Virus record (IMG/VR): IMGVR_UViG_3300042345_000286
Location: 1 to 20,053 of that record
Source of the DNA: a virus
DNA: 20,053 bases
Direction: 5' to 3' (one strand)
Part shown: in pieces, positions 4,501 to 20,053 of the stretch
Position numbering within the stretch: position 1 is the first letter of the stretch
How the letters are laid out: each line of letters starts with the position of its first letter
Notes under the pieces: generated by a model
What the model was told of the DNA's origin: nothing
The model's input: the letters and a program-made list of their open reading frames with translations, nothing else
The model's database searches: none
Program-made: the position numbers and the translations under genes

Positions 4501-7500
4501 ATTTCATCATCAATTCTAATAAGCTCACCACTAAAGAATGAAGTAATTCCAACAAAATTCAAAATACTATCACTTGTTTCTGAATCAGAAGCAAGAAGTG
4601 TTGTTACTGATGATCCAACTATTGGAGATTGTATAAAGTTGTCAATTGCAATTAAACATCTAGAGTTTTGATTTTTCGCTGTAAATTTATGGAATGAACC
4701 AATTCCAACACTTCTCAATTGAATTTCTGTGGGAATAGATTTTAAAGCATTTTCAGCAGTATCTGATACTCTAATGGTAGATGTATTTACAGTTATTGCG
4801 TAGAGTTTATTTGGAAGAATATCTGTAGTTCCAATACCAGCAATACTTGATGTAACAATTCCAATAGGAGTATGAACTCCATCATCAAGATAACTATAAG
4901 AAATTTCTTCCCCAGTTACATAGAAGTGATTTGGTATAGTAAATGTATTATTTGCAATATTTACAATATTTGAGTTATTACCTAAGAATTCTTTCTGGAA
5001 AACTGGCTCATTTTCATAAGTTAATTCAAATGATTTTCGTATATCTTTAGATGTTCCTTCATATAAACCATAACCAGTATCAATAGATGCATTATTCAAT
5101 ACTATCTCATAATTAAGAGATCCAGCATTAATAAGACTTAACGCATTTTGGAACACTCTAACTTGTGTGTTAATATTTGGAATAGGAGTAAATTCAAAAT
5201 TAATGTTCGTTCCAGAAACAGTAGCACCAAAAGTTCCAAGACCAATATGCGTTCTTACTGGAGCATAATCTACTAAATATGCTCTATTTCTATCATTAAT
5301 TACAATAGTTTCTAAAAATTCATAACGATTATTTGTAGTATCTTCTACAGAAATCAGATAATATGCGCCAGAATATGGATTATCATAAGAAGCAATTGTA
5401 TTTTGAACTGGAGTGGATGTTGATCCAATTCCAATATAATGTGATGAGAATTTGGTATTATTTAAAGTTACTGTAGAAACTCCAGAAGATGTAGTATCAC
5501 CTATAGCAACAGTAATGCTATAAAAATGTGAAGTATGAGCTAGGGCAACATTTGGAGTAAAATCTAGATTGATATTTGGACCAGAATAGTAGAAGTGATA
5601 CGTTCCTAATCCAGAAGACGTTTCAGAAGATGCATTAGACATCAATCCATAATCCAAAACATGAATATCAGTCCCATCATGAACTAAAGAAAATTCTATA
5701 AATTCTAGATCCTGTAAATTCAATGCTTCAATTCCAACCAAGATTTTTGCGGATCTATTTGTTTTTGGAATAGTTAAAATATTGGATGGTCCAGTTGAAC
5801 CTGAATTAACATATTTTGTTGTCGCTGCAATACCAACAACACCAAGAGAAGTGGAATCACTTCCATCCAAATAATCATTCATATTATATGAAATATATGA
5901 AATATCATAATCATTCACTTCAAAATTGACTGGATAGAACAGAAGTTTTCCTTCATCTCCACTAATAACAAAATCAAAAGAACCAAGATTTCTAGCTGTA
6001 TCAATTCTTCCATATTGATTCAAATATGAATCAAAACTATCATACATCATACTAATAATGGAAAATTGTCTTTCACCAATAAATCTTTGATCTCTTACAT
6101 AAGTAATATACTTTTTAAATCTCTCGTTTTCCAGTCTAAAACTATCTACAATACTAAATGGAGTAGATCTAGGAGTGTTATTAAATCTGGGACTTACATC
6201 GTCAAAAAGTAATACTCTATTTCCAATAGATTCAAAATAGTCTTGAAGATCTCTGGAATTAAATATTACCTCATTAGATATGTTAGTAGATCCAATTTTT
6301 ATAGTTTTCTCTGATGCTAGATCAAAATCTACAATACAATTTAAATCTACAACTTCAACTATATCAGAAAATGTATCAACAGAAATTCCAGAAATTTCTT
6401 CAGATACCACAGAAACGAATAAATCCGAATTACTGGAATCTGAAGTGGATTCCATCTGCAAATCTGAGAACTTTTTATATCCAGATACATGGTTTAAAGA
6501 ACTTACATAAGAATTCCAATCATCATACTCAACTTTAGATTTTAAAGAATATGAAAAATATTGATAATAATCGCTGTCATGAATTCTTTGAGTATTATCA
6601 TTCAAAAATCCTATTGTATCTTGCCATCCATCAATAACTAATCCAGATGAATTTAAAGTATAATATCCACTAGAATTTTCAACATATACAATTTTGGATC
6701 TTGTATCTGTTATCTCACCATAAATTTCATCATTTATATTAAAACTATCTTTAGATATTATTTTTAATATATCATTTTCTTTATCTGTAGCAATAACTTT
6801 GGATCTTACTTTTCCATTTGTTATGTATTCACCTATTTTATAACTACCCTTTTCTATTTTAATTTCAAATGTAGGGAAGTATTTTTCTGGTATTACTAAT
6901 CCATTTGAAAGTAAAGGATAGAAAGTTCCTGGAGTTTCATCACCAGAAATAAACTCTTTAATATTAAAAGTAATAGATGAATTCGATCCTCCAATGTTTG
7001 GATCTCTACTCTTTACTACAAATGGTTTGTAATTATAATTTGAAGAATTATAACCCTTTCCAATTGTCCCAACTCCTACACTTACATTTTCAATTATAAA
7101 AGTATCATTTATTTCAAATGGAAAATCATTTAAAGAACTATAACTTACACCCAATCCAACGATAACGTCTTTAGTAGTAGAGTTATAATTCATTGATATA
7201 ATAGGAATCCCATTAGTATTACTAATCGGAACAATTTTAACAGAAGATCCAGTTATAGAATTAGTATTTTTTACAATAGAAACATAATTTTCAGACGATG
7301 AATATTGCAATTCAACATCGTTCAATATAATATTTTTTATTGGATCTACCAGTATTAATTTTGGATCTGTAGTATAATTTATTCCAGGGGTCAATTTTTT
7401 AATATATTCAAGTTTTCCTAAAGGAGATATTAATATAATTTGTGGTAATTTAAATTGTGGTTTTAAAGTTGTATCAGAAGGAAATCCAAATCCAATATCT

Positions 7501-10500
7501 TTAACTTCAATTTTTTTGGGTACTCCAATATTTAAACCAATCGGATAAATTAGAGAATCTTTTCCAGCATTTGAATTTATAAGTGATATTGAAGGTAAAG
7601 ATTTAAAGTTCTTTGTCGAATATGGTTGAACTTTATATATTCCTCCAGTTTCAGTTTTAGATGATGTGAAATATGAAATATTAGTGTTTCCATCATTTGA
7701 ATAGAATGATTCTTCTGGAGTCAATGGAAGATAGAATTCAAAATTTGTAGAACCAATGCCAACTTTATTGATACTATGTTTTCCACTATAGTCACTATAA
7801 TCTATTAATACTGTATTATTATTTTGTATATTTTCATTATCAACTAAAATATCTTTTTTAGTTTGAGATATTTTATCTAAATTTATTGGATTTACTTTAT
7901 AGTATAATACTGTAGGATCGGAAAATTGAAGTTCTATTCTTGCATTAGTATCAATTCCAACGTTACCATACTGAATAATTTGAGGTTGAGTTGTGAATTG
8001 ATATTCATCATTAAATTGATTATCGACGTAGAAATTTAATTTAAAGGCAGAATATAATCTAGATCCAACATTATATGACAATGAAGAATCAGAAAGGTCA
8101 AATATAGTTTTTCTTCCAATTTGCAATTTTAATAATGGATTAATTAATCCAATTTCTCCAGTAGAGGCAGAACCAATATTTACATAATTTGGATCTAAAC
8201 TTAAAGATTCATAATAAGAATCGCATAATCTTATAGTATTTTCATCCACAACATTAACATAATAAATCTTATTATTAATAAGATTTGTTGATGGTGAATT
8301 TGAAGTATATACTACTTTTTGACCTGTAAGGAATCTGTGATTTACGATTGTTATAGTATCACTGATTGGATCTATATCTAAATTACTGAATTCGTAGTTT
8401 CCTACTAAAATTCTTCTATTATAATCATTATATTTAACTTTTACAGTGGTAGTTATGCCAATATTTTTAACAAATAAATCCACAGAATCATTTACTCTCA
8501 TATTATGAGTAGATGCTAAAGATACCACCACACTTCCTTTTTTAATCTGGAATGGTTTTATATTATTATAGTTGGTTTTAAAACTATGATTTGTTCCAGA
8601 TCCATTTGATATAAAATATATCAAATTATTAGTTGATGTTATTCCAACATAATTTCCCGTAGATCCAAGTCCAACAACAGAAGTTGATATACCTATAAAA
8701 TCATTTGATAATACTACAGCATAAACTTCTGACTCATCGGTGAGATTATAATTAGTAATTCCATCTAAAGATACATCAAGTCCCGAACCACCATTTGAAT
8801 TGTATATAATCTTAGTCCCATTCTCTATTTGGTGATTTGGAATATAGATTGATCTGATTGGAGCAAATATTTGAGTTGCGCCAATTCCAGGATTCGATAT
8901 TGTTAGTGTAGATCCAATTCCAATTGTCCCAATACCAACAGATTCGGATGGAGTAAAATAATATTCTTTATTCGTTTTTATATTATTTGATGATGTATTT
9001 TGGGGTAAATTAACGTAAAACTTTCTAGTATTTTCAGTTAAAGATTCACCTGTTGTGTATGCTAATCCAACAGTTCCATCATATGCCCTTTGCACCCTAA
9101 TTCTAGATGAAAGAATATCCACCTCCAGAATTTTAACTTTCTCATCTCTAATACTGTATACATCATTCGTTGTTATATTTGGATAAGATAATGGTCCATA
9201 GACATCAAAATAAGTTATTATTCCAGTAATAGATGTGTCTGAAACACCCCTACTTAAAAATAAAACATTATTCTTGATCCTTATTTCAAAAGGTTGATTT
9301 AATTTAAAATTAAAAGTATTTGTTCCAATTCCACTAAAGAATATAGGTTGCCTATCAATTAAATTATGTGTAGAAGTACAAAAACCAATATAATTTCCAT
9401 ATGGGTCCGAATTTGAAATTATTTCTACATTGTTAATTTTTTCACCTTTATATGATATGTTAGAAATTTCTCTACCAACAATACTTTTTATTTTTCCGTA
9501 AATTTCTTCATCATTGAAATTTACCGTATCATCAACTCTATATCCACTTCCAGAATATAAAACCGATATATCAGTGACATTATTTGATGAAACATCCTTT
9601 ACAAAATTATAAATTGGTTTAATTTTATTTGGATTTAATATGTAATTGTAACCTGATGTTTCGGATTCTAAATTATAATGATCTGTATATCTAACTTTGT
9701 TTTCAGTATTGAAATTTTGTAAAGATAAAGCATTTCCAAAATTATCTTCAGATGGAATATGTTTATAAGTATTTCCAATAATATATGGGAACGTTGGTTT
9801 TTTATAGTTAGTGAATGGACCAGAAGTTTCAACTTGACCATCACTTATTGTAGAAAAATATGCATATATTCCATTTGGATATTCTGGAGTTATAGTATAT
9901 CTTCCATTATGTTGATCAAGGTCTCCATTATCAACAAAATCATAATCCTCTACAAAAAATCCTTCTGGATATAAATTAACGCTAGGTCTTTTTGATTTTA
10001 AAGACGATACATATCCAGATTTCATTAATTTGACATTTCCCCCAGTTGGAGTTTCGTATCCATATGGGCCATAAATTGGATTGCCATCATATGCCCATCC
10101 AATTATTGGGGAATGATATGTAGTCTCAACTTCTTTTGAATTGACCAGACTTAGATCTGGTAGATATATTGTTTCTCCATCTGATACTTTTGATCCAAGT
10201 ATTGTTCTACGTAAATTTCTGGGAGCATATAAATGATAATATTGAAGGGTTCTACCCAAAGAACTATTTTTTTCCAAGATTCCATCATCTTGGGTTATTG
10301 TATCCTTCTTTATTAATTTTTCTACATTATTGACAGTCCATTTTTTCGAATTAAATTTAAGTTGGCATCTTCCACCGATAGTTGAAACTTGTAAGGTTGT
10401 TTCTCCTTTAATATATCCATATCCACCATTTATGACCTTAACCTCCACAATAGATCCATTCTCTACTATTGGAGTTAATATTGCTCCAGATCCAACAAAT

Positions 10501-13500
10501 GAATTAATAACAATTAATGGCAAATCTGTATAATTGGAACCACTATTTTGTACATTCACACCAATTATTGTCCCGTTAGAAATTATAGGGAATAATTGAG
10601 CTCCACTACCACTATCAAGTCTATATGAAGGTTGTCTATTGTAATTTAATATTTCTTCTGAACCATAATAATCACCAGCATTATAAACAAAAATTGAAGT
10701 AATATTTCCTATTACAATTGGAGATATTACAGCACTAAAATCTTGCCCGCTTAGCGTTGAAATTCCAATTTTTCCTGTAATTTTAGCTTCTATTGGAGGA
10801 TAATTAAAATAATGAACTCCAGATCCAACAGATGAGAAATTTATATATTCCCCTTTGTTGATATAATAATTTGAAGCAGTTGTCCCAACACCAACGGAAG
10901 ATAATTTGAATCTATTGGTATCAATCTTTGTTACATAATATGATGATGCCGAAGTTAATCCGCTTATTGGAGTTTCCGAGGCATTATATACTATAACTTC
11001 TCCAGTTTCATATCCATGATTCGTTATTGTTATACTATTCGATATTGTGCTTATTCCAGAAGAAGTTGCTTGAATTAATCTATTTTTATACCCTTCTCCA
11101 TTATTTTCGATAACGAACCTTTGAATCTTTTTCTTAGTGGAATACGATTCTATAGAATGTTTTCCTATTCCATAAGAAGTAATATTTACAGTGTTTATTC
11201 CAGATACTGCATCTAATTCTACATTATGGATAGTTATAGATTTTGAATTTAAAGTTTTTATATAATAAATTGAATTATCAGTTAATCCTCCAATTGCAGT
11301 TTGATTAAATGCTCGGTAAATAACTTTTTCGTAATCTCTAAATTTATGATCTTCGGAAAATGTTATTACATTTGTAGATAAATTAACGTTGTTAAAATCT
11401 TCGGATTTGAAAAACTCTTCATGTTTGAATGATGCTAATTCAGCTCTAACTAAAGCTCCTTTTCCACCTCCTCCAATTATATCTACAATAGGAGTATCAA
11501 TATAATCAAATCCAGGATCTACTAATTTTATTCCAGCCAAAGATCCTGCAACCCCAACATATCCTTTAGCAAAATCGTTTGTGGATCTTTGGGAATCATT
11601 TTTATCAGTAATTATTAATCTAGGAGGATTCACTACATCGTAGTCATTTCCTCCATCCAAAACATCTATACTTTCTATCTCACCATAATAAACTAAATCT
11701 GAAGACTTATAATTAAGGATTTCTACACCATTAATTAAAATGCCAGTATTTTGGTTTGGTTTAGTTTCATAAAAATCTAAAGAATCCCTTTTTTGTAATT
11801 CTGGAATTTTTTTCAATAACTTATATGGGACAAAATTATTATCATAATATTTTTCTAGTATAATCGTGCTGTTAGTAACGTTTCCAACTAGATTTATGAA
11901 TTTATTTCCATAAATTGCAGACTTACTTCTGGATAATTTAATTCTGGATGAACTTATTCTTTTAACATAATATAAACCAAAGTCTATATTTAAAGTATTG
12001 CTCGAACTTTGCGGAATGTAATATACAGCATCCCCAGTTAGGAATGAATGTGTTCCAATCTCAAGTTCTTCTCCATTAAAATTACCACTAAAAGATACAG
12101 AATATTTTTTTATATCAAGTGTTAAATTTAAATATGAAGGTAAAGAATTTGATGTAACAAAACTATCACCTTGATAAAAGTCATAATATACATTTGTGAC
12201 ATTTGAAGTCACTTGATCTATAAAAGAGTCGCCAGTATTAACGTATGATATTTGTCTTTCTATATAATAACTTCCAGTAAGATCTATTTCACCCTGTTGT
12301 GATTCTACAACTAAAGACCTTTTATTGTTTAATGATGTAACTTTAAGATTGTTTTTGTTATCTTTGGTATCATATAAAACTAAACTATCTCCAACGTAAA
12401 TATACGAGTCATCATAAAGACTGATAGAATACGAAAAATTAGAAGAATCTACCAGGGTTATATTTTTGACATAATAATAAATTGAATTATTATATAACCA
12501 AGATGTATGAATTGGTCTATTACCAGATAATCCAATATTATCAATTATAACAGGATCATTTTTCGAATATCCTCCGATTGGATTTATAAAAACAGAATCG
12601 GAAATTACAGAAGTAATTTTAAACTCAATTTTATTGTTATTTGGATCATATCCATAAGAATAATTACTATCTCCAACATCACTTCCAGATGGAATATCGA
12701 AAGTTATTCCAGAACATTCTAAAAATTGATTTAGATTTCTATCGTAATATGTTACTAATTTAGTAGTACCATCGGGAAGTTTAATTAATAATTCTCCTTC
12801 ATTTGGAAATCCAATAGTAGAATCAACTGTTACAAAGGTAGAATTTTTTGTTATATTTGAGGTTGCTTTTGTTTTTGGGCTTACATTAAAATTTCCGTAT
12901 ATTGTTCCACTTGAAATATTAATATCTCTATTATAGTCATTATCTAAACTGATCTTATAATAAATTTTATCCCCTCTTTTTATTTCTTCAACATCCAATA
13001 CTGTAGCAAAAGATTGATTGGATGAATTTATTTTATTTTGATATATGGTTTTTCCAACAAGATTTAAAATATTTCTATTATCACACTCTACAACTAATTT
13101 TTGAGCTCTGCGATATTTTGATGCTGATGGAGATATTACGTTATCTGAAGGTTTTAATACCTTTACCTTTTCTCCATACAAAGCATTGAAAAGAATCGTA
13201 AAAGATTTATCAGATCCTTTTGATGAATAAAAATCTTTTACCTGTTTAATAAAAAGTTTTTCATTTACATTTTCATTAAACGTTACCCCTTCAAATCCAG
13301 GAGCAATTTGCTTCTTTATCTTATATAAAAACTCTTTTAAAAATAGAGCACTTAAGTTTGAAATTGCACTACCATCTACATGATCATCAGAATTGGTAGT
13401 GGAAAAAATTAATTTGTCATTTTTTCCATTGAGATCACTTACTCCACTAAATCCTCTGATACATTCTTCAAAACTATTATCAGTTTTGGATTTATATGTA

Positions 13501-13805
13501 ATGATTTCATTATCAATCTGTATTATTCCATACTTGTCTGGGAACCCTACTGTGGATGTTGCCAGAATTGAAGTAGCGAACTGATCAATATCGCCAATTA
13601 AATTGGTAGATTCAGATACACTTTTGATATTATCAATTTTTGCATATTGATCAATATTATTCAGTATATCTGATGGACCACCTGGTATTTCTAAAGATTT
13701 ATAATACTGCGATAAAAATTCAGATACGAGAGGAAATTCCTCCGTAACAAATGATGGAAGTTGATTTTCAACAATCTCGCTGATATTAACTCTTGAATTT
13801 ACCAT
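1578..13805 (-). CDS. Giant virion structural protein in the gp7 position (4075 aa)
   Basis: This is probably a baseplate or tail-periphery structural protein. It sits between gp6 and gp8, where T4 has gp7 (about 1030 aa), but is four times longer. The N-terminus is typical of the large cyanophage protein at this site: SEIVENQLPSFVTEEFPL, then EFLSQYYKSLE and NIDQYAKID. Around residues 170-230 come IKQVKDFYSSKGSDKSF and FNALYGEKVKVLKPSD. The rest is beta-rich, low in Cys, and full of Gly-Ile-Gly-Ser/Thr turns. Two module families recur: GxGY repeats (at least 11) and a module with H-x-x-x-TG near its start and YYV near its end (about 6). Residues about 1235-1320 resemble a YHYH domain (GWAYDGNPIYGPYG, then NGRYTITPEYPNGIYAYF). 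The C-terminus, NNGYYGDFSWGKI to PLKYFGYL, looks intact. The start is one base after the gp6 stop, so translation is probably coupled. No signal peptide or membrane segment is evident. Whether it is a true gp7 homologue is not shown. Confidence 0.85.
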   Translation of the reverse strand: MVNSRVNISEIVENQLPSFVTEEFPLVSEFLSQYYKSLEIPGGPSDILNNIDQYAKIDNIKSVSESTNLIGDIDQFATSILATSTVGFPDKYGIIQIDNEIITYKSKTDNSFEECIRGFSGVSDLNGKNDKLIFSTTNSDDHVDGSAISNLSALFLKEFLYKIKKQIAPGFEGVTFNENVNEKLFIKQVKDFYSSKGSDKSFTILFNALYGEKVKVLKPSDNVISPSASKYRRAQKLVVECDNRNILNLVGKTIYQNKINSSNQSFATVLDVEEIKRGDKIYYKISLDNDYNRDINISSGTIYGNFNVSPKTKATSNITKNSTFVTVDSTIGFPNEGELLIKLPDGTTKLVTYYDRNLNQFLECSGITFDIPSGSDVGDSNYSYGYDPNNNKIEFKITSVISDSVFINPIGGYSKNDPVIIDNIGLSGNRPIHTSWLYNNSIYYYVKNITLVDSSNFSYSISLYDDSYIYVGDSLVLYDTKDNKNNLKVTSLNNKRSLVVESQQGEIDLTGSYYIERQISYVNTGDSFIDQVTSNVTNVYYDFYQGDSFVTSNSLPSYLNLTLDIKKYSVSFSGNFNGEELEIGTHSFLTGDAVYYIPQSSSNTLNIDFGLYYVKRISSSRIKLSRSKSAIYGNKFINLVGNVTNSTIILEKYYDNNFVPYKLLKKIPELQKRDSLDFYETKPNQNTGILINGVEILNYKSSDLVYYGEIESIDVLDGGNDYDVVNPPRLIITDKNDSQRSTNDFAKGYVGVAGSLAGIKLVDPGFDYIDTPIVDIIGGGGKGALVRAELASFKHEEFFKSEDFNNVNLSTNVITFSEDHKFRDYEKVIYRAFNQTAIGGLTDNSIYYIKTLNSKSITIHNVELDAVSGINTVNITSYGIGKHSIESYSTKKKIQRFVIENNGEGYKNRLIQATSSGISTISNSITITNHGYETGEVIVYNASETPISGLTSASSYYVTKIDTNRFKLSSVGVGTTASNYYINKGEYINFSSVGSGVHYFNYPPIEAKITGKIGISTLSGQDFSAVISPIVIGNITSIFVYNAGDYYGSEEILNYNRQPSYRLDSGSGAQLFPIISNGTIIGVNVQNSGSNYTDLPLIVINSFVGSGAILTPIVENGSIVEVKVINGGYGYIKGETTLQVSTIGGRCQLKFNSKKWTVNNVEKLIKKDTITQDDGILEKNSSLGRTLQYYHLYAPRNLRRTILGSKVSDGETIYLPDLSLVNSKEVETTYHSPIIGWAYDGNPIYGPYGYETPTGGNVKLMKSGYVSSLKSKRPSVNLYPEGFFVEDYDFVDNGDLDQHNGRYTITPEYPNGIYAYFSTISDGQVETSGPFTNYKKPTFPYIIGNTYKHIPSEDNFGNALSLQNFNTENKVRYTDHYNLESETSGYNYILNPNKIKPIYNFVKDVSSNNVTDISVLYSGSGYRVDDTVNFNDEEIYGKIKSIVGREISNISYKGEKINNVEIISNSDPYGNYIGFCTSTHNLIDRQPIFFSGIGTNTFNFKLNQPFEIRIKNNVLFLSRGVSDTSITGIITYFDVYGPLSYPNITTNDVYSIRDEKVKILEVDILSSRIRVQRAYDGTVGLAYTTGESLTENTRKFYVNLPQNTSSNNIKTNKEYYFTPSESVGIGTIGIGSTLTISNPGIGATQIFAPIRSIYIPNHQIENGTKIIYNSNGGSGLDVSLDGITNYNLTDESEVYAVVLSNDFIGISTSVVGLGSTGNYVGITSTNNLIYFISNGSGTNHSFKTNYNNIKPFQIKKGSVVVSLASTHNMRVNDSVDLFVKNIGITTTVKVKYNDYNRRILVGNYEFSNLDIDPISDTITIVNHRFLTGQKVVYTSNSPSTNLINNKIYYVNVVDENTIRLCDSYYESLSLDPNYVNIGSASTGEIGLINPLLKLQIGRKTIFDLSDSSLSYNVGSRLYSAFKLNFYVDNQFNDEYQFTTQPQIIQYGNVGIDTNARIELQFSDPTVLYYKVNPINLDKISQTKKDILVDNENIQNNNTVLIDYSDYSGKHSINKVGIGSTNFEFYLPLTPEESFYSNDGNTNISYFTSSKTETGGIYKVQPYSTKNFKSLPSISLINSNAGKDSLIYPIGLNIGVPKKIEVKDIGFGFPSDTTLKPQFKLPQIILISPLGKLEYIKKLTPGINYTTDPKLILVDPIKNIILNDVELQYSSSENYVSIVKNTNSITGSSVKIVPISNTNGIPIISMNYNSTTKDVIVGLGVSYSSLNDFPFEINDTFIIENVSVGVGTIGKGYNSSNYNYKPFVVKSRDPNIGGSNSSITFNIKEFISGDETPGTFYPLLSNGLVIPEKYFPTFEIKIEKGSYKIGEYITNGKVRSKVIATDKENDILKIISKDSFNINDEIYGEITDTRSKIVYVENSSGYYTLNSSGLVIDGWQDTIGFLNDNTQRIHDSDYYQYFSYSLKSKVEYDDWNSYVSSLNHVSGYKKFSDLQMESTSDSSNSDLFVSVVSEEISGISVDTFSDIVEVVDLNCIVDFDLASEKTIKIGSTNISNEVIFNSRDLQDYFESIGNRVLLFDDVSPRFNNTPRSTPFSIVDSFRLENERFKKYITYVRDQRFIGERQFSIISMMYDSFDSYLNQYGRIDTARNLGSFDFVISGDEGKLLFYPVNFEVNDYDISYISYNMNDYLDGSDSTSLGVVGIAATTKYVNSGSTGPSNILTIPKTNRSAKILVGIEALNLQDLEFIEFSLVHDGTDIHVLDYGLMSNASSETSSGLGTYHFYYSGPNINLDFTPNVALAHTSHFYSITVAIGDTTSSGVSTVTLNNTKFSSHYIGIGSTSTPVQNTIASYDNPYSGAYYLISVEDTTNNRYEFLETIVINDRNRAYLVDYAPVRTHIGLGTFGATVSGTNINFEFTPIPNINTQVRVFQNALSLINAGSLNYEIVLNNASIDTGYGLYEGTSKDIRKSFELTYENEPVFQKEFLGNNSNIVNIANNTFTIPNHFYVTGEEISYSYLDDGVHTPIGIVTSSIAGIGTTDILPNKLYAITVNTSTIRVSDTAENALKSIPTEIQLRSVGIGSFHKFTAKNQNSRCLIAIDNFIQSPIVGSSVTTLLASDSETSDSILNFVGITSFFSGELIRIDDEIMRINKTGIADSNLVLVQRPWMGTNLGFHTAGSLIRKIEGDYNIVGNTINFIEAPAGKSPIGTITNRPNDRDYTGITTFSTFNGRTFLRSSVPDTANEPYSKNYIFDSLSQEFNGITTSYTLTSSGNNVSGFSTGNSIVLIDGIFQQPRRLGAVDIEGAFYLNEVSGISTITFVGTASSTPYDINQSKLPYGGVIVSFGSTGGLGYQPLISAGGTATVSIAGTITSISVGNTGSGYRATESIEVITEVVETVSIGSTIISIINNNGILNKLSYYNNRLIDIGSKVKDGQIVGFGTTSVIVSTSSTSTSIINAGDSVKIRLTNPKIGIVNVGYATENSESYSVTFVGFTTVIAGNVSPNVTIVNPGIGFTEPPILVFDQPLSYTNLKLNYSSSSSGIGSEAKVDVVVGQGSSIIDFNIKNYGYGYKPGDILTVPTGGLTGIPLDPTVSPSFREAQIFVDKVYNNKFTSWVVGDLLPIDPLDDLFDGVRKLFPIRVDGQLRTIRAKSGSPINIQSTLLVFINNILQVPGESYIFEGGSVIAFTEALKPGDTSSILFYRGTADVDVLEVDILESIQIGDDVELNSDDPFLNQEFRTVVAINATDDISTTPYSGVGISTNELLLRPVTWKKQTEDRIINGKQVGKNRILYEPLIYPTTNIIQNVGIGSTVVFVDSLKTFFDSYKENTLTSYISDIEIISQDEIRRATATAVVSSAGTISSITLTNPGIGYTFTPSVTIQKKIGISSANVAIATAYISSGSVNSIGIITSGIGYTQSNPPLVLIESPTSKVERIKNVSYEGDFGIIIGISTTSLVGIPTGIEFTFYVPSDSYVRNSTINTSPITSTGISGIQTGYYFVVRNSNVGYGLTSLRTDFTVIGIGSEFVDNVYQAAKVSVAQTSVTGVGTTNIVKVVVNVSNFNSIGTSFNNGYYGDFSWGKISIPTRKSPKNFYAYTENGISGIDTSSIIRRKNPLKYFGYL

Positions 13806-13806
13806 A

Positions 13807-15705
13807 TTATTTTAATATTTGTGGTCCGTTTGGATAACTTGAAGTTACTAGGTATGTGCTTCCAGAGGAATCTGCTCCAGAAGAAATATCATCAGGAAGT
13901 ATAGTCAATTTACTTCTATTAATATCTATCTGCAAATATAAATCCTGTAATCCGATAACATCATTAGATTTTGGAATCGCAGAAATCATAACAACTGGTT
14001 CTCCATCTTGTAAGAGTTCAGTAGAAGTTATGGCAATAGATTCCAAATATATTTCACCTGTTTCATAATTAACTTTACCAACTTCATTGAAGTAGTTTAA
14101 TGTTTCACCATCAAATAAAAATATTTTTCCTGTTGTTGGATTATCTAAATTTGGAACATCGAACAAATAAACCAAATTATCAAGTCCCTCTATTCTAAAT
14201 CCAGACGACTTTATATTTTGTCCCTGAATATTTTTGACATGAAACTCATTTCCAAAACAAATTTCATAATTTCCAATAGCATTTATATCTACTTTAAGAT
14301 CCCTTCTCATTGAAATCTTAGTAATATTCGAGGTTATTGCCGAATTGCTATCATCTACCAACTTTAGGAATTTACTATATTTAAATCTTGCTCCGTATCT
14401 ATTAACTTCGCTAGATTTTGTATATTCCAAAATATTATTATAAACTATATTTGTAACCACATTTTCATTGGAAACCATATTTTTATTATAATAAACTGTA
14501 GTATCATATTCAATGTGAAGATACTTCAGATCCATAAACTCTGGAACAATTCCAGCAACGGAATATTTTCTTAATTCCGATCTAATAAAATCTTTAGTTG
14601 CAGAGGAAACATAAAATCCATTTGTTGGTTTGATTGCAATATAAACTCTTCCATATTTTGGTGGTTCCATAGTTTCACCACCAAAAACGGAAATAGATTC
14701 AGTTTCTGGATATATTTGTGGTATTAATGCCTCATAATCACCTGCAGTAACTGCTCTATTTTGTGTGGAATATATTTTGGGGGCATATTTTTTAATATAA
14801 CTTATGGATTCAATTTCTTTTCCTCCACTTGTTGATCCTTCGGAAGTAACGAAAGAAATCTCGGAATTAACGATGCTCCCATCGTTTGCAACCAATTTTC
14901 CAGCATAACTAAAGTTCGATATTCCATTTGCAACTTCACCATTAGTTACAACATAAGAAACTGTTACATAGTTTCCTGGAAGAAGTTTTCTACCAAATAA
15001 TCCATCACCAAAAAGCAATTCGTATCTTTCATCCTCAATTTCTTGAATCAAAAATATTTTTGATGTCGAATCGATATTTGCAATGCTGTCAATATGCTTA
15101 AAGACTTTAGAATCACTCGACAGAGCAGTATCTTTGACTATTACGGATATGGTTGATGTATCTATTCCAGAGTTGTCTAATATAAATCTTTGATAATTTG
15201 TGCTATCTACAGTAAAGTTTTGAGTAATTAACGTCCCTTCATAGATTATAATGTTTTCAAAAGATGCTATTCCATCTACAACGGGAACAGTAATGTCTTC
15301 GGGAATTGAAAATGAGTTACTCTCTCTACCAAAAGTAGTTAAAGTAGTGAAACAAATTCCCTTTTTAAGAGTCAAAGTCAGTGGTTTAACATTTAAACCA
15401 GAAAGATCTACGAAAAAAGAAACTTTTGCTCTCGATGAAGTCCTTGATCTGGGGACGTAACCAATATTTCTTGCAAGAGAAACGACATTTTCTCTAAGTG
15501 TAGCACCGTCAAGAAATAATTCATTGCTAACCATATTAGCATTATATGAATTGATGTATGTGTTATACGCCAACACATCAATCAATACAGATAAACTAGA
15601 CCCCTCAAAGTCATAATCTGTAAAATTGGAATTCGTTCTTATATAATCTTTTATCGAAGTCTTGATGTCTTCGAAATCTAAATTTGTGAAATTAACTAAT
15701 GCCAT
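13807..15705 (-). CDS. 6: T4-like baseplate wedge protein gp6
   Basis: gp6 is the main wedge protein of the T4 inner baseplate, where it forms the ring linking neighbouring wedges. This protein is 632 aa; T4 gp6 is 660 aa. The N-terminus MALVNFTNLDFEDIKTSIKD and the early ATLRENVVSLARNIGYVPRS segment are typical of the cyanophage form. The central signature is the baseplate-J/gp6-like block: NRAVTAGDYEALIPQIYPE, then SVFGGETMEPPKYGRVYIAI, then KPTNGFYVSSATKDFIRSEL. The ATG shares one base with the gp25 stop (TAATG at 15705-15707 on the minus strand), and the giant gene begins one base after its own stop. The block 25-6-giant is therefore almost certainly co-transcribed and translationally coupled. 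No truncation is visible. Confidence 0.93.
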   Translation of the reverse strand: MALVNFTNLDFEDIKTSIKDYIRTNSNFTDYDFEGSSLSVLIDVLAYNTYINSYNANMVSNELFLDGATLRENVVSLARNIGYVPRSRTSSRAKVSFFVDLSGLNVKPLTLTLKKGICFTTLTTFGRESNSFSIPEDITVPVVDGIASFENIIIYEGTLITQNFTVDSTNYQRFILDNSGIDTSTISVIVKDTALSSDSKVFKHIDSIANIDSTSKIFLIQEIEDERYELLFGDGLFGRKLLPGNYVTVSYVVTNGEVANGISNFSYAGKLVANDGSIVNSEISFVTSEGSTSGGKEIESISYIKKYAPKIYSTQNRAVTAGDYEALIPQIYPETESISVFGGETMEPPKYGRVYIAIKPTNGFYVSSATKDFIRSELRKYSVAGIVPEFMDLKYLHIEYDTTVYYNKNMVSNENVVTNIVYNNILEYTKSSEVNRYGARFKYSKFLKLVDDSNSAITSNITKISMRRDLKVDINAIGNYEICFGNEFHVKNIQGQNIKSSGFRIEGLDNLVYLFDVPNLDNPTTGKIFLFDGETLNYFNEVGKVNYETGEIYLESIAITSTELLQDGEPVVMISAIPKSNDVIGLQDLYLQIDINRSKLTILPDDISSGADSSGSTYLVTSSYPNGPQILK

Positions 15706-16106
15706 TATCGTGTTGGAGTGAGTGCAAATGATAACTGTTGAGTTGGCACATCAATTCCTATAATTTTATATTTTATTACTATATCGAATTGATTTTCATC
15801 GTAATTTGGTTCAACATCTAATGATACGAGAGACACTCTAGGCTCGTAATTATTAATTACATACTCAATTTCGTTTCTTATGAAAATTGAAGTGCTTCTG
15901 TCAAGATTTTCAAAGAGAAGTCTAGATACTTCGGATCCCAATTGACTATTAAAGAACCTTTCTCCTTTCTGAGTAAGAACTAAATTGCGAATAGAACGTG
16001 CTATTGCTCTTTCATTAGTGATTGTCAGAATATCACGAGTCAAAGGATGACTCTGTAACGTTAAACTGACATCTTTGAAGGGTTTGCTAACACGTTCTAA
16101 TGGCAT
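15705..16106 (-). CDS. 25: T4-like baseplate wedge protein gp25
   Basis: gp25 is a small wedge protein with the lysozyme-like GPW/gp25 fold. It sits in the inner baseplate, where it helps trigger sheath polymerisation. At 133 aa it matches the T4 length (132). It carries the conserved EPR triplet at residues 88-90 (NNYEPRVSL), preceded by the helix FIRNEIEYVIN. Other conserved parts are the N-terminal SHPLTRDIL and the central LVLTQKGERFFNSQLGSEV. It is the first gene of the structural block. A late-promoter-like site lies 28 bases upstream, and its stop overlaps the gp6 start by one base. No strong Shine-Dalgarno is visible before its ATG. Confidence 0.94.
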   Translation of the reverse strand: MPLERVSKPFKDVSLTLQSHPLTRDILTITNERAIARSIRNLVLTQKGERFFNSQLGSEVSRLLFENLDRSTSIFIRNEIEYVINNYEPRVSLVSLDVEPNYDENQFDIVIKYKIIGIDVPTQQLSFALTPTR

Positions 16107-16919: not shown

Positions 16920-16941
16920 TCTTATATTGTATCTATACAAT

Positions 16942-16965
16942 AAAAAAGACATCCTTGCGGATGCC
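16942..16965 (-). terminator. Intrinsic terminator of the glycosyltransferase operon
   Basis: On the minus strand GGCATCC, loop GCAA, GGATGTC is followed at once by TTTTTT. The stem has 7 pairs, including one G-U, with a stable GNRA tetraloop. It begins 7 bases after the stop of the 47-aa gene, the expected position for ending the unit that contains the glycosyltransferase. It also shows that the ATG at 16952 is not a real start. Confidence 0.9.
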
Positions 16966-16972
16966 TTAAGAA

Positions 16973-18032: not shown

Positions 18033-18080
18033 AGAGATAACATTACTTCCTTCAAATTCTATCTTTTATTTCGTCAATTG

Positions 18081-18272
18081 TCAATGAGAAGACTCTAAGT
18101 TTAGGTTCTTATTTGATGTGAGTTCTACGAATGTGAGGTCCTCTACACTATAGTCTGTCTTCATTAAACCTACCATATTCTTCAATGTATTCCAAGTGAT
18201 CTCAAACTCTTCTTCCTTCAAAGAATGGAAAATGCAGCGTTCCTTGGCGTATATGTGGTAAATTTTTTCCAT
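18081..18272 (-). CDS. Conserved-looking cyanophage hypothetical protein (63 aa)
   Basis: The protein starts MEKIYHIYAKERCIFHSLKE and continues FEITWNTLKNMVGLMKTDY. I recall this type of short protein (MEK-YHI-AK-RC--, then MVGLMKTDY) as recurrent in T4-like cyanophages, with no known function. It appears to be a small globular alpha/beta protein: one strand, then the amphipathic helix EEEFEITWNTLKNMVGLM. There is no membrane segment. It starts 6 bases after the stop of the truncated membrane-protein frame and ends 48 bases before the glycosyltransferase, so it is part of the same run of genes. No convincing Shine-Dalgarno precedes the ATG at 18272. Confidence 0.8.
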   Translation of the reverse strand: MEKIYHIYAKERCIFHSLKEEEFEITWNTLKNMVGLMKTDYSVEDLTFVELTSNKNLNLESSH

Positions 18273-18278
18273 TATTAA

Positions 18279-18533
18279 TTAATTGACAACCGCTTTATAT
18301 ATAAGCACTAAAATAAATCCGAGTGGTAATAACACTACCTTCGGATACCTTATTAACCATCCAGCAAGCACAACCTTCCAAAAGTTCCAGTAGGGGGTTT
18401 GATGGCGATTTTTTCTACGCGAAATTTTTTTATAATACACGGAATCAATCTTTGAATTTGGTTGAGGTCTTGTTGAATATTTTTCAGTCGCTTGGGGACC
18501 TTTGTAGGTTACATAGGACCCATTTTTTAATAA
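18279..18533 (-). pseudogene. 5'-truncated small membrane protein gene, cut at the composition junction
   Basis: This frame has no ATG, because the gene is missing its beginning. From 18533 to the TAA at 18279-18281 it is open for 84 codons. It reads like a genuine protein: NGSYVTYKGPQATEKYSTRP, then SKIDSVYYKKISRRKNRHQ, then a Trp-rich segment (TPYWNFWKVVLAGWLIRYP), then a transmembrane helix (KVVLLPLGFILVLIYK). Lys/Arg-rich sequence before the hydrophobic part suggests a single-pass or hairpin membrane protein with its N-terminus inside. The frame runs without interruption into the G8 tract and the GC-rich DNA, where protein-like character stops. The only candidate start within it is GTG at 18440, which would leave 53 aa and begin mid-protein. 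A 6-base gap to the next gene supports an operon. Function unknown. Confidence 0.72.
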
Positions 18534-18611
18534 GGGGGGGGCGCACGGCGCCCGCCATAACGATAACGTTATATCGTATAACTGTCCTGCTGAAAGAACG
18601 AATGACGGGGA
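18534..18611. other. Composition junction with G8 tract and GC hairpin
   Basis: DNA changes from phage-like AT-rich to GC-rich within a few bases, at eight consecutive G (18534-18541). GGGCGC, loop ACG, GCGCCC (18539-18553) forms a short strong hairpin that starts inside the tract. I see no gene that credibly spans this stretch. It marks either an assembly chimera or a true insertion/recombination point; the truncated phage frame ends exactly here. Confidence 0.6.
18560..18577. repeat. 18-bp nested palindrome, operator-like
   Basis: ACGATA (18560-18565) pairs with TATCGT (18572-18577), and the centre ATAACGTTAT (18563-18572) is itself a perfect 10-bp palindrome. It sits in the only AT-rich patch of the right-hand segment, between the array terminator and the junction. 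A regulator binding site is possible, but no promoter or target gene can be assigned. Confidence 0.4.
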
Positions 18612-18637
18612 GGGGGACGGTCCTGAGACTGTCCCCC
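18612..18637 (-). terminator. Hairpin closing the small-gene array (no -35 loop)
   Basis: On the minus strand an 11-pair stem (one G-U) with loop TCAG begins 7 bases after the stop of the 58-aa gene. That is the same spacing as the hairpins inside the array. Unlike those, its loop is not TTGACG and no -10 follows at the right distance, consistent with there being no next gene to drive. There is no T-run, so classical intrinsic termination is uncertain; it may act as a 3' end or stability element. Confidence 0.6.
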
Positions 18638-18644
18638 ATAAGGA

Positions 18645-18821
18645 TCAGCGGATCACCAGAGGGTGTACGTCGCTGGCGTGAGTCTCTGCCCACTGGGCGG
18701 CGAGCAGAGTAGCGGTGTGACCCACGGGATCGGTGATCCGATTGAACTTGCTGCCGTCGTTGCGATAGGCGACCCACAGGATCTGGCGATCGGTCAGGCG
18801 GGAGGCGGGGGAGAAGCGCAT
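18645..18821 (-). CDS. Small GC-rich array gene, 58 aa
   Basis: I do not recognise this protein. It starts MRFSPASRLTDRQILWVAYR and continues NDGSKFNRITDPVGHTATLL, ending in a helix AAQWAETHA and VHPLVIR. It is soluble, with mixed charge, no Cys and no membrane segment. It is the last of five minus-strand genes, and I read it directly because it is short. Support comes from context: it starts 24 bases below the conserved -10 element, its leader has the shared AGCAAACCGCA block, and its TGA is followed after 7 bases by a hairpin, exactly as in its neighbours. No Shine-Dalgarno is present. Third codon positions are mostly G or C, as expected for a real gene in GC-rich DNA. Function unknown. Confidence 0.65.
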   Translation of the reverse strand: MRFSPASRLTDRQILWVAYRNDGSKFNRITDPVGHTATLLAAQWAETHASDVHPLVIR

Positions 18822-18829
18822 CGGTCTTT

Positions 18830-18857
18830 TGCGGTTTGCTCTGGAATTCTACAGGGT
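18830..18857 (-). repeat. 28-bp promoter/leader repeat, copy 1
   Basis: Identical over 28 bases to 19091-19118 and 20025-20052. It covers the -10 region (TAGAAT) and the start of the leader with AGCAAACCGCA. Identity in non-coding DNA between unrelated genes implies recent duplication or strong constraint. Confidence 0.9.
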
Positions 18858-18883
18858 GTGTGGGGCACCCGTCAAGGTGCCCC
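18846..18883 (-). promoter_or_regulatory. Terminator/promoter module between the 63-aa and 58-aa genes
   Basis: Minus strand: arms GGGGCACC and GGTGCCCC (18883-18876 and 18869-18862) enclose loop TTGACG (18875-18870). After 18 bases from the loop comes TAGAAT (18851-18846). The hairpin starts 7 bases after the upstream stop, while the loop and the hexamer form a good sigma-70-type promoter for the downstream gene. The inner arm bases differ from the other modules on both sides, so pairing is kept. Confidence 0.72.
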
Positions 18884-18890
18884 GTAGAGA

Positions 18891-19082
18891 TCAGTATCCC
18901 ATCCAAGTCAGCAGTTCGCCAGCATCGATGCCGCCGATGCCCCAGCGGTCAGCGGTGCCATACTCCTCCAGAAAGGCATCCGTGATGCTGTGCAGGTCAG
19001 CAGCATAGAGGGCATCGTCATAAGTGATGCACCCGCAGTCGTCGGCGATGGTCAGCAGTTGCTCGGTGAAGGTCTCAGGCAT
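18891..19082 (-). CDS. Small acidic GC-rich array gene, 63 aa
   Basis: This protein is not recognised. It starts MPETFTEQLLTIADDCGCIT and ends GGIDAGELLTWMGY. It is strongly acidic (many Asp/Glu and hardly any basic residues), probably helical, with a CGC pair at residues 16-18 and Tyr/Trp in the second half (FLEEYGTADRWGIGG). No membrane segment or signal is visible. Acidity and size recall DNA-mimic or host-takeover proteins, but that is only analogy. It begins 25 bases after its own TAGAAT element, has the shared AGCAAACCGCA leader and no Shine-Dalgarno. It ends in TGA, followed after 7 bases by the next hairpin module. Confidence 0.7.
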   Translation of the reverse strand: MPETFTEQLLTIADDCGCITYDDALYAADLHSITDAFLEEYGTADRWGIGGIDAGELLTWMGY

Positions 19083-19090
19083 GGTTCCCT

Positions 19091-19118
19091 TGCGGTTTGC
19101 TCTGGAATTCTACAGGGT
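19091..19118 (-). repeat. 28-bp promoter/leader repeat, copy 2
   Basis: An exact copy of the element at 18830-18857, placed upstream of the 63-aa gene. It contains the TAGAAT hexamer and the conserved leader. Confidence 0.9.
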
Positions 19119-19143
19119 CAGGGGGCAGGCGTCAACCTGCCCC
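19107..19143 (-). promoter_or_regulatory. Terminator/promoter module between the 88-aa and 63-aa genes
   Basis: Minus strand: arms GGGGCAGG (19143-19136) and CCTGCCCC (19129-19122) with loop TTGACG (19135-19130), then 17 bases, then TAGAAT (19112-19107). The hairpin begins 7 bases after the TGA of the 88-aa gene. A 17-base spacer is the optimum for a sigma-70-type promoter. Confidence 0.75.
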
Positions 19144-19150
19144 GTGAGGA

Positions 19151-19417
19151 TCAGATCCTCTCCAGATCGCCGTGCTGCAGAGCACGGTGGAGCAGGCGGC
19201 CCCAGGAGGTTGCCTCCCGTGCCTCGGGATCCTGCAGGAGGTCAGTCCAGCGAACAGCAGCGCCGTGATCCTCAAAGGCGAAGCGGTATTCGGTGCTGCT
19301 GCTGGTGTAGGTCACCAGCAGGTCGAAGGTGCCCTGCAGGTCACCTGGCACGATCGCCAGGTGGGAGATGGCGCTGCTGTTCACTGAGGCGGCGGCGATG
19401 GCGGTTGCGGTGGTCAT
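19151..19417 (-). CDS. GC-rich array gene, 88 aa
   Basis: Not firmly recognised. The protein starts MTTATAIAAASVNSSAISHL, followed by a beta-rich stretch (FDLLVTYTSSSTEYRFAFED) and then a helical, charged second half (AAVRWTDLLQDPEAREATSW, GRLLHRALQHGDLERI). The S-S-x-I, strand, Y-x-F pattern and the late SWG/H faintly recall KTSC-type small domains, but I would not assign it without a profile search. The first 12 residues are Ala/Thr-rich but too weakly hydrophobic for a signal peptide. It starts 24 bases after a TACCAT hexamer, with a diverged leader (AGCAAGCAACCGCA) and no Shine-Dalgarno. TGA is followed after 7 bases by the next module. Confidence 0.7.
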   Translation of the reverse strand: MTTATAIAAASVNSSAISHLAIVPGDLQGTFDLLVTYTSSSTEYRFAFEDHGAAVRWTDLLQDPEAREATSWGRLLHRALQHGDLERI

Positions 19418-19441
19418 CGGATCGGTTGCGGTTGCTTGCTA

Positions 19442-19478
19442 ATGGTAGACGATGAAGGGGCAGGCGTCAACCTGCCCC
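19442..19478 (-). promoter_or_regulatory. Terminator/promoter module between the 91-aa and 88-aa genes
   Basis: Minus strand: arms GGGGCAGG (19478-19471) and CCTGCCCC (19464-19457), loop TTGACG (19470-19465), 17 bases, then TACCAT (19447-19442). The hairpin starts 8 bases after the TAA of the 91-aa gene. Hairpin and loop are unchanged even though the downstream -10 and leader have diverged. Confidence 0.72.
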
Positions 19479-19486
19479 CGTGGCGT

Positions 19487-19762
19487 TTAGAGGGTGTATT
19501 CGGGGCGGGTGCCGTTGATCTCATCTCCCAGGCGGGAGATGGGGCGCTGCCCCTTGTGATCGAGGTGGCACACAGGAGGGACTCCACCGATGCGGTTCTG
19601 TGCCCGCAGGATCAGCGCATCCTGTGCGGTCACCCGTGCCACGGGTGTGTGGGGAGCAACGCCAAACACGGTGGAGCACTGCGGGCGATCAACGGGTTGA
19701 AAGGCGGCGCTGGCGGGAGCATCGCGGTGGAGGGTGCAGGCGCTGATAAAGGTGGTGATCAT
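19487..19762 (-). CDS. GC-rich array gene, 91 aa
   Basis: Function not recognised. The protein starts MITTFISACTLHRDAPASAA and has three Cys (9, 29 and in VPPVCHLDHKGQ near residue 64). His residues lie close to the first and last of these. A metal site is conceivable, but the spacing matches no motif I know. It is mildly basic, with no clear membrane helix. It is the only array gene that ends in TAA, and the one with the longest leader: about 43 bases between TACAAT and ATG, containing its own hairpin. Its start is therefore less certain than the others. An ATG immediately following a CTG is used here as the first in-frame start. Confidence 0.6.
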   Translation of the reverse strand: MITTFISACTLHRDAPASAAFQPVDRPQCSTVFGVAPHTPVARVTAQDALILRAQNRIGGVPPVCHLDHKGQRPISRLGDEINGTRPEYTL

Positions 19763-19777
19763 CAGTCTGAGGATGGT

Positions 19778-19797
19778 GCGGGGTCCGTTTGCCCCGC
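19778..19797 (-). promoter_or_regulatory. Hairpin in the leader of the 91-aa gene
   Basis: On the minus strand GCGGGG (19797-19792) pairs with CCCCGC (19783-19778), with an 8-base loop. It begins about where transcription from TACAAT would start and replaces the plain AGCAAACCGCA leader of the other genes. It could protect the mRNA 5' end or modulate translation; no ligand-type architecture is visible. Confidence 0.5.
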
Positions 19798-19805
19798 TTG
19801 TGAGA

Positions 19806-19843
19806 ATTGTAGTCTATGGGTGGGGCAGGCGTCAACCTGCCCC
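19806..19843 (-). promoter_or_regulatory. Terminator/promoter module between the 54-aa and 91-aa genes
   Basis: Minus strand: arms GGGGCAGG (19843-19836) and CCTGCCCC (19829-19822), loop TTGACG (19835-19830), 18 bases, then TACAAT (19811-19806), the closest of the set to TATAAT. The hairpin begins 7 bases after the TGA of the 54-aa gene. Confidence 0.75.
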
Positions 19844-19850
19844 GTAGGGG

Positions 19851-20015
19851 TCACCAGAGCAGGTCAGCGATTGCTTCCAGGCGCTGCTGGCGGGATACCA
19901 GTTCCTTCAGGATGGCCCGCTCCTCCTTGGCGGTGGGGTTGCCTTCCCACAGCCACTCCTCCAGTTGGAAGGAGGTCAGGTCGTCGAAGGCGGTGGCGAT
20001 GGTTCCGTCCAGCAT
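19851..20015 (-). CDS. Small GC-rich array gene, 54 aa
   Basis: Not recognised. The protein starts MLDGTIATAFDDLTSFQLEE and continues WLWEGNPTAKEERAILKELV, then SRQQRLEAIADLLW. It is predicted to be almost wholly helical, with a Trp-containing amphipathic first helix and a heptad-like second helix (ERAILKELVSRQQRLEAIADLL). A small helical hairpin or dimer is plausible. It is the most upstream complete gene of the array. It lies 25 bases after a TAGAAT hexamer with the shared AGCAAACCGCA leader, lacks a Shine-Dalgarno, and ends in TGA with the conserved 7-base gap to the next hairpin. I read it directly because of its length. Function unknown. Confidence 0.65.
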   Translation of the reverse strand: MLDGTIATAFDDLTSFQLEEWLWEGNPTAKEERAILKELVSRQQRLEAIADLLW

Positions 20016-20024
20016 GGGGTGGGG

Positions 20025-20052
20025 TGCGGTTTGCTCTGGAATTCTACAGGGT
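20025..20052 (-). repeat. 28-bp promoter/leader repeat, copy 3, at the window edge
   Basis: Identical to copies 1 and 2 over 28 bases, and to copy 1 for one further base (20053). The TAGAAT hexamer is at 20046-20041. Its expected TTGACG hairpin would lie just outside the window. The sequence ends inside the repeat, which is where a short-read assembly would be expected to break. Confidence 0.85.
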
Positions 20053-20053
20053 G

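Follow-up and report, generated by a model that had tools for sequence, protein, structure and literature searches.

The closest described counterparts of the elements reported here are the promoter-early stem-loops (PeSLs) of T4-like phages, which PMC4503421, citing Arbiol et al. 2010 and Comeau et al. 2014, presents as composite motifs linked to gene shuffling; for the part of S-PM2 that it studied, the same paper considers shuffling by PeSLs unlikely. A second kind of unit that bears comparison is the moron, which PMC1524935 describes in lambdoid phages as an insertion made up of a promoter, an ORF and a terminator and having a foreign base composition; most novel ORFs of T4-like phages do not resemble morons (PMC1524935). 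We took the geometry of PeSLs from measurement in the RB49 genome, not from the PeSL publications. Eighteen terminators were found there, 7 of which have a promoter nearby, and in all 7 the centre of the -35 box lies 29-46 nt after the hairpin centre, such that the terminator comes first and the promoter follows downstream with no overlap. Integron gene cassettes form one-gene arrays that are reshuffled at a hairpin-forming repeat (attC).

The window analysed here is the entire viral record IMGVR_UViG_3300042345_000286, a stretch of 20,053 bases. Its AT-rich part (25-44% G+C in 500-base windows) encodes T4-like cyanophage genes, and adjoining the baseplate genes is a module of tiny minus-strand genes (18501-20053) with 59-65% G+C, as against about 30% for most of the surrounding phage DNA. 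With gp25, gp6 and the baseplate-wedge gene in the window, the module lies in a variable region of the kind that houses PeSLs, and S-SM2 has small ORFs at the equivalent position. Two contigs from other metagenome datasets cross the junction between the AT-rich and GC-rich parts, one with 99.8% identity over 5.2 kb (L091) and the other with 93.2% identity over 5.6 kb (L127), which rules out an assembly chimera of the two kinds of DNA. A source of the GC-rich block was not found, the tblastn searches of named phages with its 88-aa and 63-aa genes both being empty, and family searches with the cassette genes gave nothing above the cut-off that would point to a function. As in morons, each small ORF comes with its own promoter-like signal and hairpin and differs in G+C from its surroundings; unlike morons, the genes here form many-cassette arrays in which one repeated element serves both neighbours.

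The initial annotation had described, in the spaces between the genes of this module, four perfect 8-bp stems around the loop TTGACG, each followed 17 or 18 bases on by a -10-like hexamer (TAGAAT, TAGAAT, TACCAT and TACAAT). All four stems were recovered, exact in every detail and on the minus strand, where the genes also lie, and the hexamers were confirmed at each of them (Table 1). Three of the four elements share the stem arms GGGGCAGG/CCTGCCCC and one has GGGGCACC/GGTGCCCC. A fifth, partial copy runs off the end of the record, and in the contig L127 it is completed by the expected stem, GGGGCACC-TTGACG-GGTGCCCC. Perfect hairpins with an 8-bp stem and a 6-nt loop number 5 in 18501-20053, against a mean of 0.035 in 1000 dinucleotide shuffles, none of which contained a hairpin with a TTGACG loop; the TTGACG hexamer by itself shows no enrichment across the window (8 observed against 5.1 expected). 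RNA folding of the four elements gave energies of -19.3 to -21.7 kcal/mol (z -3.4 to -4.0), and no known RNA family matched the element. The -35 and -10 hexamers, with a spacing of 16-18 nt in elements of this type, match a sigma-70-like promoter.

Table 1. Features of the window (positions in the 20,053-base record; distances are from loop to -10)
Feature	Position	Strand	Details
Giant baseplate-wedge gene	1578-13805		T4-like cyanophage gene
gp6	13807-15705		Best matches are Synechococcus phages, e.g. S-SM2
gp25	15705-16106		T4-like cyanophage gene
Hairpin with GCAA loop, T-run, then TACAAT	16926-16967	-	AT-rich part; no -35 in loop
TTGACA-N17-TAGAAT without hairpin	18056-18084	-	AT-rich part
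Module-end hairpin	18612-18637	-	GGGGGAC-A-GTC-TCAG-GAC-C-GTCCCCC after last cassette gene; internal control
Cassette gene, 58 aa	18645-18821	-	Final gene of module
Element D	18846-18883	-	Stem 18862-18883, GGGGCACC/GGTGCCCC; loop/-35 18870-18875; -10 TAGAAT 18846-18851, 18 nt
Cassette gene, 63 aa	18891-19082	-	No known family; no tblastn match in named phages
Element C	19107-19143	-	Stem 19122-19143; loop/-35 19130-19135; -10 TAGAAT 19107-19112, 17 nt
Cassette gene, 88 aa	19151-19417	-	Weak phrog_4357 match (unknown function); no tblastn match in named phages
Element B	19442-19478	-	Stem 19457-19478; loop/-35 19465-19470; -10 TACCAT 19442-19447, 17 nt
Cassette gene, 91 aa	19487-19762	-	No known family
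Element A	19806-19843	-	Stem 19822-19843, GGGGCAGG/CCTGCCCC; loop/-35 19830-19835; -10 TACAAT 19806-19811, 18 nt
Cassette gene, 54 aa	19851-20015	-	No known family
Element E, partial	20025-20053	-	-10 TAGAAT 20041-20046 and leader; hairpin past contig end

These elements resemble PeSLs, as far as the account in PMC4503421 describes the latter, in being composites of a sigma-70-like promoter and a stem-loop placed between small genes in variable regions of T4-like myoviruses, with modular shuffling of those genes. The statement in the initial annotation that no named element has this design is hence not borne out, PeSLs being composite promoter/stem-loop motifs as well in that account, with a difference in the overlap of the two parts. 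Unlike the RB49 arrangement, with its offset of +29 to +46, the window element has an offset of about 0, the -35 box being the loop itself, and it is also GC-rich and has no T-run; a -35 in a hairpin loop was found in none of RB49, T4 and KVP40, even in a looser scan. We read the window element as one that would work like a PeSL, with its two halves overlapping; the interpretation that fits best is a compact terminator-promoter, a variant form of the PeSLs found in T4-like phages. Judging from sequence, we give a probability of about 0.72 to the reading that it is a compact fused terminator-promoter and also links exchangeable one-gene cassettes to one another within a variable region of T4-like cyanophages (Kyanoviridae).

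In this proposed mechanism an element of about 40 bases would act in two forms. As RNA, the strand just past the upstream stop codon would fold into a strong hairpin that carries the -35 of the next promoter in its loop and that would end the upstream transcript or protect its end; as DNA, the same loop would be the -35 of a host sigma-70-type promoter with its -10 at 17 +/- 1 bases. Host RNA polymerase would probably start the next gene at the element, early in infection, and the start and end sites of the transcripts are predicted to lie accordingly placed around it. With the element sequence at every joint, recombination between copies could exchange cassettes, shuffling, inserting and deleting small genes in such a way that each gene keeps a promoter and a 3' end.

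We scanned IMG/VR for the stem-loop or for the combination of -35, -10 and leader; the first pattern scan was noisy, and we removed by hand 15 loci that the first element filter had let through but that resembled chance matches or other element types. The search that the initial annotation had suggested, for an inverted repeat around TTGACG followed by a -10 in metagenomic and cyanophage DNA, bore out the design, which recurs in dozens of contigs; among the matches listed there were, after filtering, 74 copies, spread over 38 loci that include overlapping or near-duplicate contigs. Most of the element-bearing loci are metagenomic. The layout of the copies is a stop codon, 6-9 nt (mostly 7), an 8-bp stem, TTGACG, the other stem arm, 8-10 nt, the -10 and a start codon, with a distance of 20-27 nt from the -10 to the start in 66 of the 74. 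The inner four stem positions, which were free in the first pattern, pair in the loci with full geometry, with one mismatched exception; covariation in window-type stems can be judged on these inner four pairs, since the search pattern fixed the outer four. An origin of the element in host chromosomes was considered and rejected: a stem-specific pattern matched only twice across 84,980 genomes of bacteria and archaea, in neither case in a cyanobacterium.

A window-type fused element is also present in a laboratory phage, at S-PM2 22046 (L349 2046), where GGGAGCAGG-TTGACG-CCTGCTCCC is followed by TATACT at 17 nt; the next gene on the same strand, about 290 nt further, is an anti-restriction gene. 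In L021 and L400 several hairpins are followed by the leader CCTATACTGATCTCAGTTC, whose TATACT occupies the -10 position, and this sequence has been given as a putative Pho box of S-PM2d250 (PMC10976474).

A version of the element with a T-run occurs in AT-rich marine cyanophages, among them S-SM2, Bellamy and S-PM2. At S-SM2 167151, upstream of hli03, we found AGGAACCC-TTGACA-GGGTTCCT-TTTTTT with TATAAT at 17 nt; Bellamy (at 184228) and DSL-LC02 likewise have a fused copy ahead of an hli gene, as does S-PM2 (at about 124309), there with TTGACT, the upstream gene differing from phage to phage. In the looser scan a -35 in the hairpin loop was seen in S-SM2, Bellamy, S-SCSM1, S-PM2, S-SRM01 and DSL-LC02, and hairpin and T-run are both present in S-SM2, Bellamy, S-SCSM1 and DSL-LC02; weaker candidates in Syn9, S-CRM01, P-SSM2 and HTVC008M were left uncounted. 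A scan with CCTTGACRGG plus a T-run drew in 61 hairpins of at least 6 bp among the matches listed, and 41 of these 61 have a -10 matching at least 5 of 6 positions at 16-18 nt, as against 4 of 300 control positions. To select promoters independently of the hairpin, we searched solely by the -10 and leader common to the hli03 genes of S-SM2 and Bellamy. All 81 distinct contexts of hli03-type promoters selected in this manner have a TTGAC -35 at 17 nt; in 49 of them it sits in a loop closed by a perfect stem of 6 bp or more, and in 59 the spacer contains a T-run (47 distinct 39-mers). The remaining 22 lack this T-run, and the majority of them also lack a hairpin.

The stems of the 47 distinct T-run sequences show two-sided changes at all 8 pairs, with a covariation of 0.600 compared with 0.240 in shuffles and at most 0.295 with slid partners. 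Pairing-compatible flanks (CC-TTGACR-GG, with T6 and TATAAT) were found in at least 120 viral stretches, and the non-pairing CC-TTGACR-CC in 6, of which 4 are hairpins shifted by one base. For the pooled loci, a 17-nt spacer was counted in 83 of 88 contexts, and the left arm takes 57 different forms; of the 133 contigs, 125 are similar in DNA to named cyanophages. A palindrome centred on a -35 box is what one would see in an operator for a dimeric repressor or activator, and we weighed this explanation; arms that change freely as long as pairing is kept, as the 57 left arms and the covariation indicate, fit poorly with a sequence-specific operator, which makes such a role highly improbable.

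A -35 box does not form the loop at every joint. The same GC-rich modules contain sister junctions where a G-rich hairpin and a -10 come with a different loop, such as CACG, CCA, GCTCCT or GCAA, and these refute a strict rule by which the loop would always be a -35. Among the hairpins outside the search pattern, a TTGAC loop was found in 21 of 101; a -10 follows 19 of these 21 and 43 of the 80 with other loops (Fisher p = 0.002), so that 43 of the 62 promoter-bearing hairpins in this set have non-TTGAC loops. In 80 loci chosen solely by a neighbour gene, 101 hairpins lie upstream of that gene; no TTGAC loop occurs among them, and 39 are followed by a promoter-like -10, which suggests that a -10 alone may be enough at some joints. 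It could accordingly be supposed that every joint is a hairpin with a -10-only promoter and that TTGACG is incidental to a compact layout, the more so as the distance from loop to -10 is similar where the loop is no -35 and as more than half of the other-loop hairpins counted above have a -10. Against this stand the TTGAC -35 at 17 nt in every hli03-type promoter despite varying stems, the association of TTGAC loops with a -10, and the retention of TTGAC with the sixth base free (TTGACC, TTGACT), and we regard the supposition as improbable. The -35 in the loop is thus common in these modules and not obligatory, and, of several arrangements of the same two parts, we take the fused one to be the most compact. 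The two parts also occur separately in the AT-rich part of the window, as a terminator-like half at 16926-16967 and a promoter-like half at 18056-18084.

Like intrinsic (Rho-independent) terminators, the window elements place a G+C-rich stem-loop right after the stop codon, and their marine relatives add the T-run; unlike them, the window copies use a promoter hexamer as the loop and have a strong hairpin without a T-run, and so lack the combination of hairpin and T-run expected of an intrinsic terminator. The initial annotation had itself pointed out the absence of a T-run, which we confirmed in the window. Owing to this absence, termination by the window-type copies can be put forward as probable at best. 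The hairpin may instead be no terminator and shield the 3' end of the mRNA, as a barrier to exonuclease or a processing site, with read-through into the next gene and a real promoter half. Besides the missing T-run, the fixed position of the hairpins 6-9 nt past the stop codon and the stable tetraloop-type loops (GCAA, TCCG, TTCG) at sister junctions agree with a shield, and we hold it to be unlikely, though well worth weighing, since AT-rich phage elements of the same geometry have a T-run directly 3' of the stem and since a similar, promoter-less hairpin closes the module. The loop of this closing hairpin (18612-18637) is no -35, and no -10 was seen 3' of it. The notion that one element could end one transcript and start the next remains the best reading, in view of the recurrent geometry and the T-run relatives, with termination a putative function in the copies that have no T-run. 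A shared sequence resembling CATTCGTTCG follows module-end hairpins in the window (18612-18637) and in L011, L016, L031, L056 and L090.

Stretches of the window module are mostly 93-99% identical to other contigs (lowest 73-89%), and gp6 and the neighbouring phage genes of the same contigs are about 65-75% identical. In L021 the module stretches stand in a different gene order; two or more downstream neighbours were counted for 7 gene clusters, and two or more upstream neighbours for 7. When the comparison is restricted to single-gene segments, an element lies no more than 70 nt away from 115 of 117 distinct breakpoints, with 56% expected. Across all element-bearing loci the signal is weaker: 142 of 407 breakpoints lie at most 60 nt from an element, where 13% would be expected. 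The probable cause is that sister joints with other loops did not enter the count of elements. The breakpoints are scattered over the hairpin, the -10 and the leader, it being noted that BLAST ends mark where similarity stops and not the exact crossover. Single-gene cassettes permuted with breakpoints at a hairpin-forming repeat recall integrons, and the elements might on this ground be sites of a site-specific recombinase akin to attC. That the breakpoints do not converge on one point, that no integrase occurs among the window genes assigned to families, and that the same bases bear strong promoter signatures set them apart from integron cassettes and leave this explanation with very little probability. 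Recombination between repeated sequences fits the scattered breakpoints better, and we infer that it is homologous rather than site-specific and that the elements, like PeSLs, mediate modular shuffling of small genes.

The joints of the PeSL kind would in this manner be extended to cyanophages, in a form more compact than that measured in RB49, and they offer a possible route by which small genes of unknown function move between divergent cyanophages and yet stay expressed. S-PM2, S-SM2 and Bellamy are isolates with fused copies, so that the idea can be tested in RNA-end data. Predictors that treat terminators and promoters separately will misread such junctions. More tentatively, it is possible that these elements form a distinct 'loop-promoter' class throughout Kyanoviridae. 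Termination, initiation and cassette exchange would then all take place at one stretch of 40 bases, with the firing of the promoter and transcription from upstream in competition for the hexamer, and in freshwater phages the element would have become the joint at which micro-genes are assembled from a GC-rich pool that divergent phages share.

Some further overlaps of transcription signals were observed. In the window, the TGA stop of the ORF 18081-18272 sits within the -35 TTGACA of the hairpin-less promoter at 18056-18084, and at S-PM2 124309 the TGA stop of the upstream gene lies within the -35 TTGACT; in both cases the end of a gene and a promoter overlap more tightly still. RB49 promoters with a 6-bp hairpin in the spacer between -35 and -10, for example TTGACAGGGGATCGGTGATCCCCTATACT, were seen on the minus strand at 43031 and 33335 of L128 (RB49) and at 8416 of L129, and represent another manner in which hairpin and promoter overlap.
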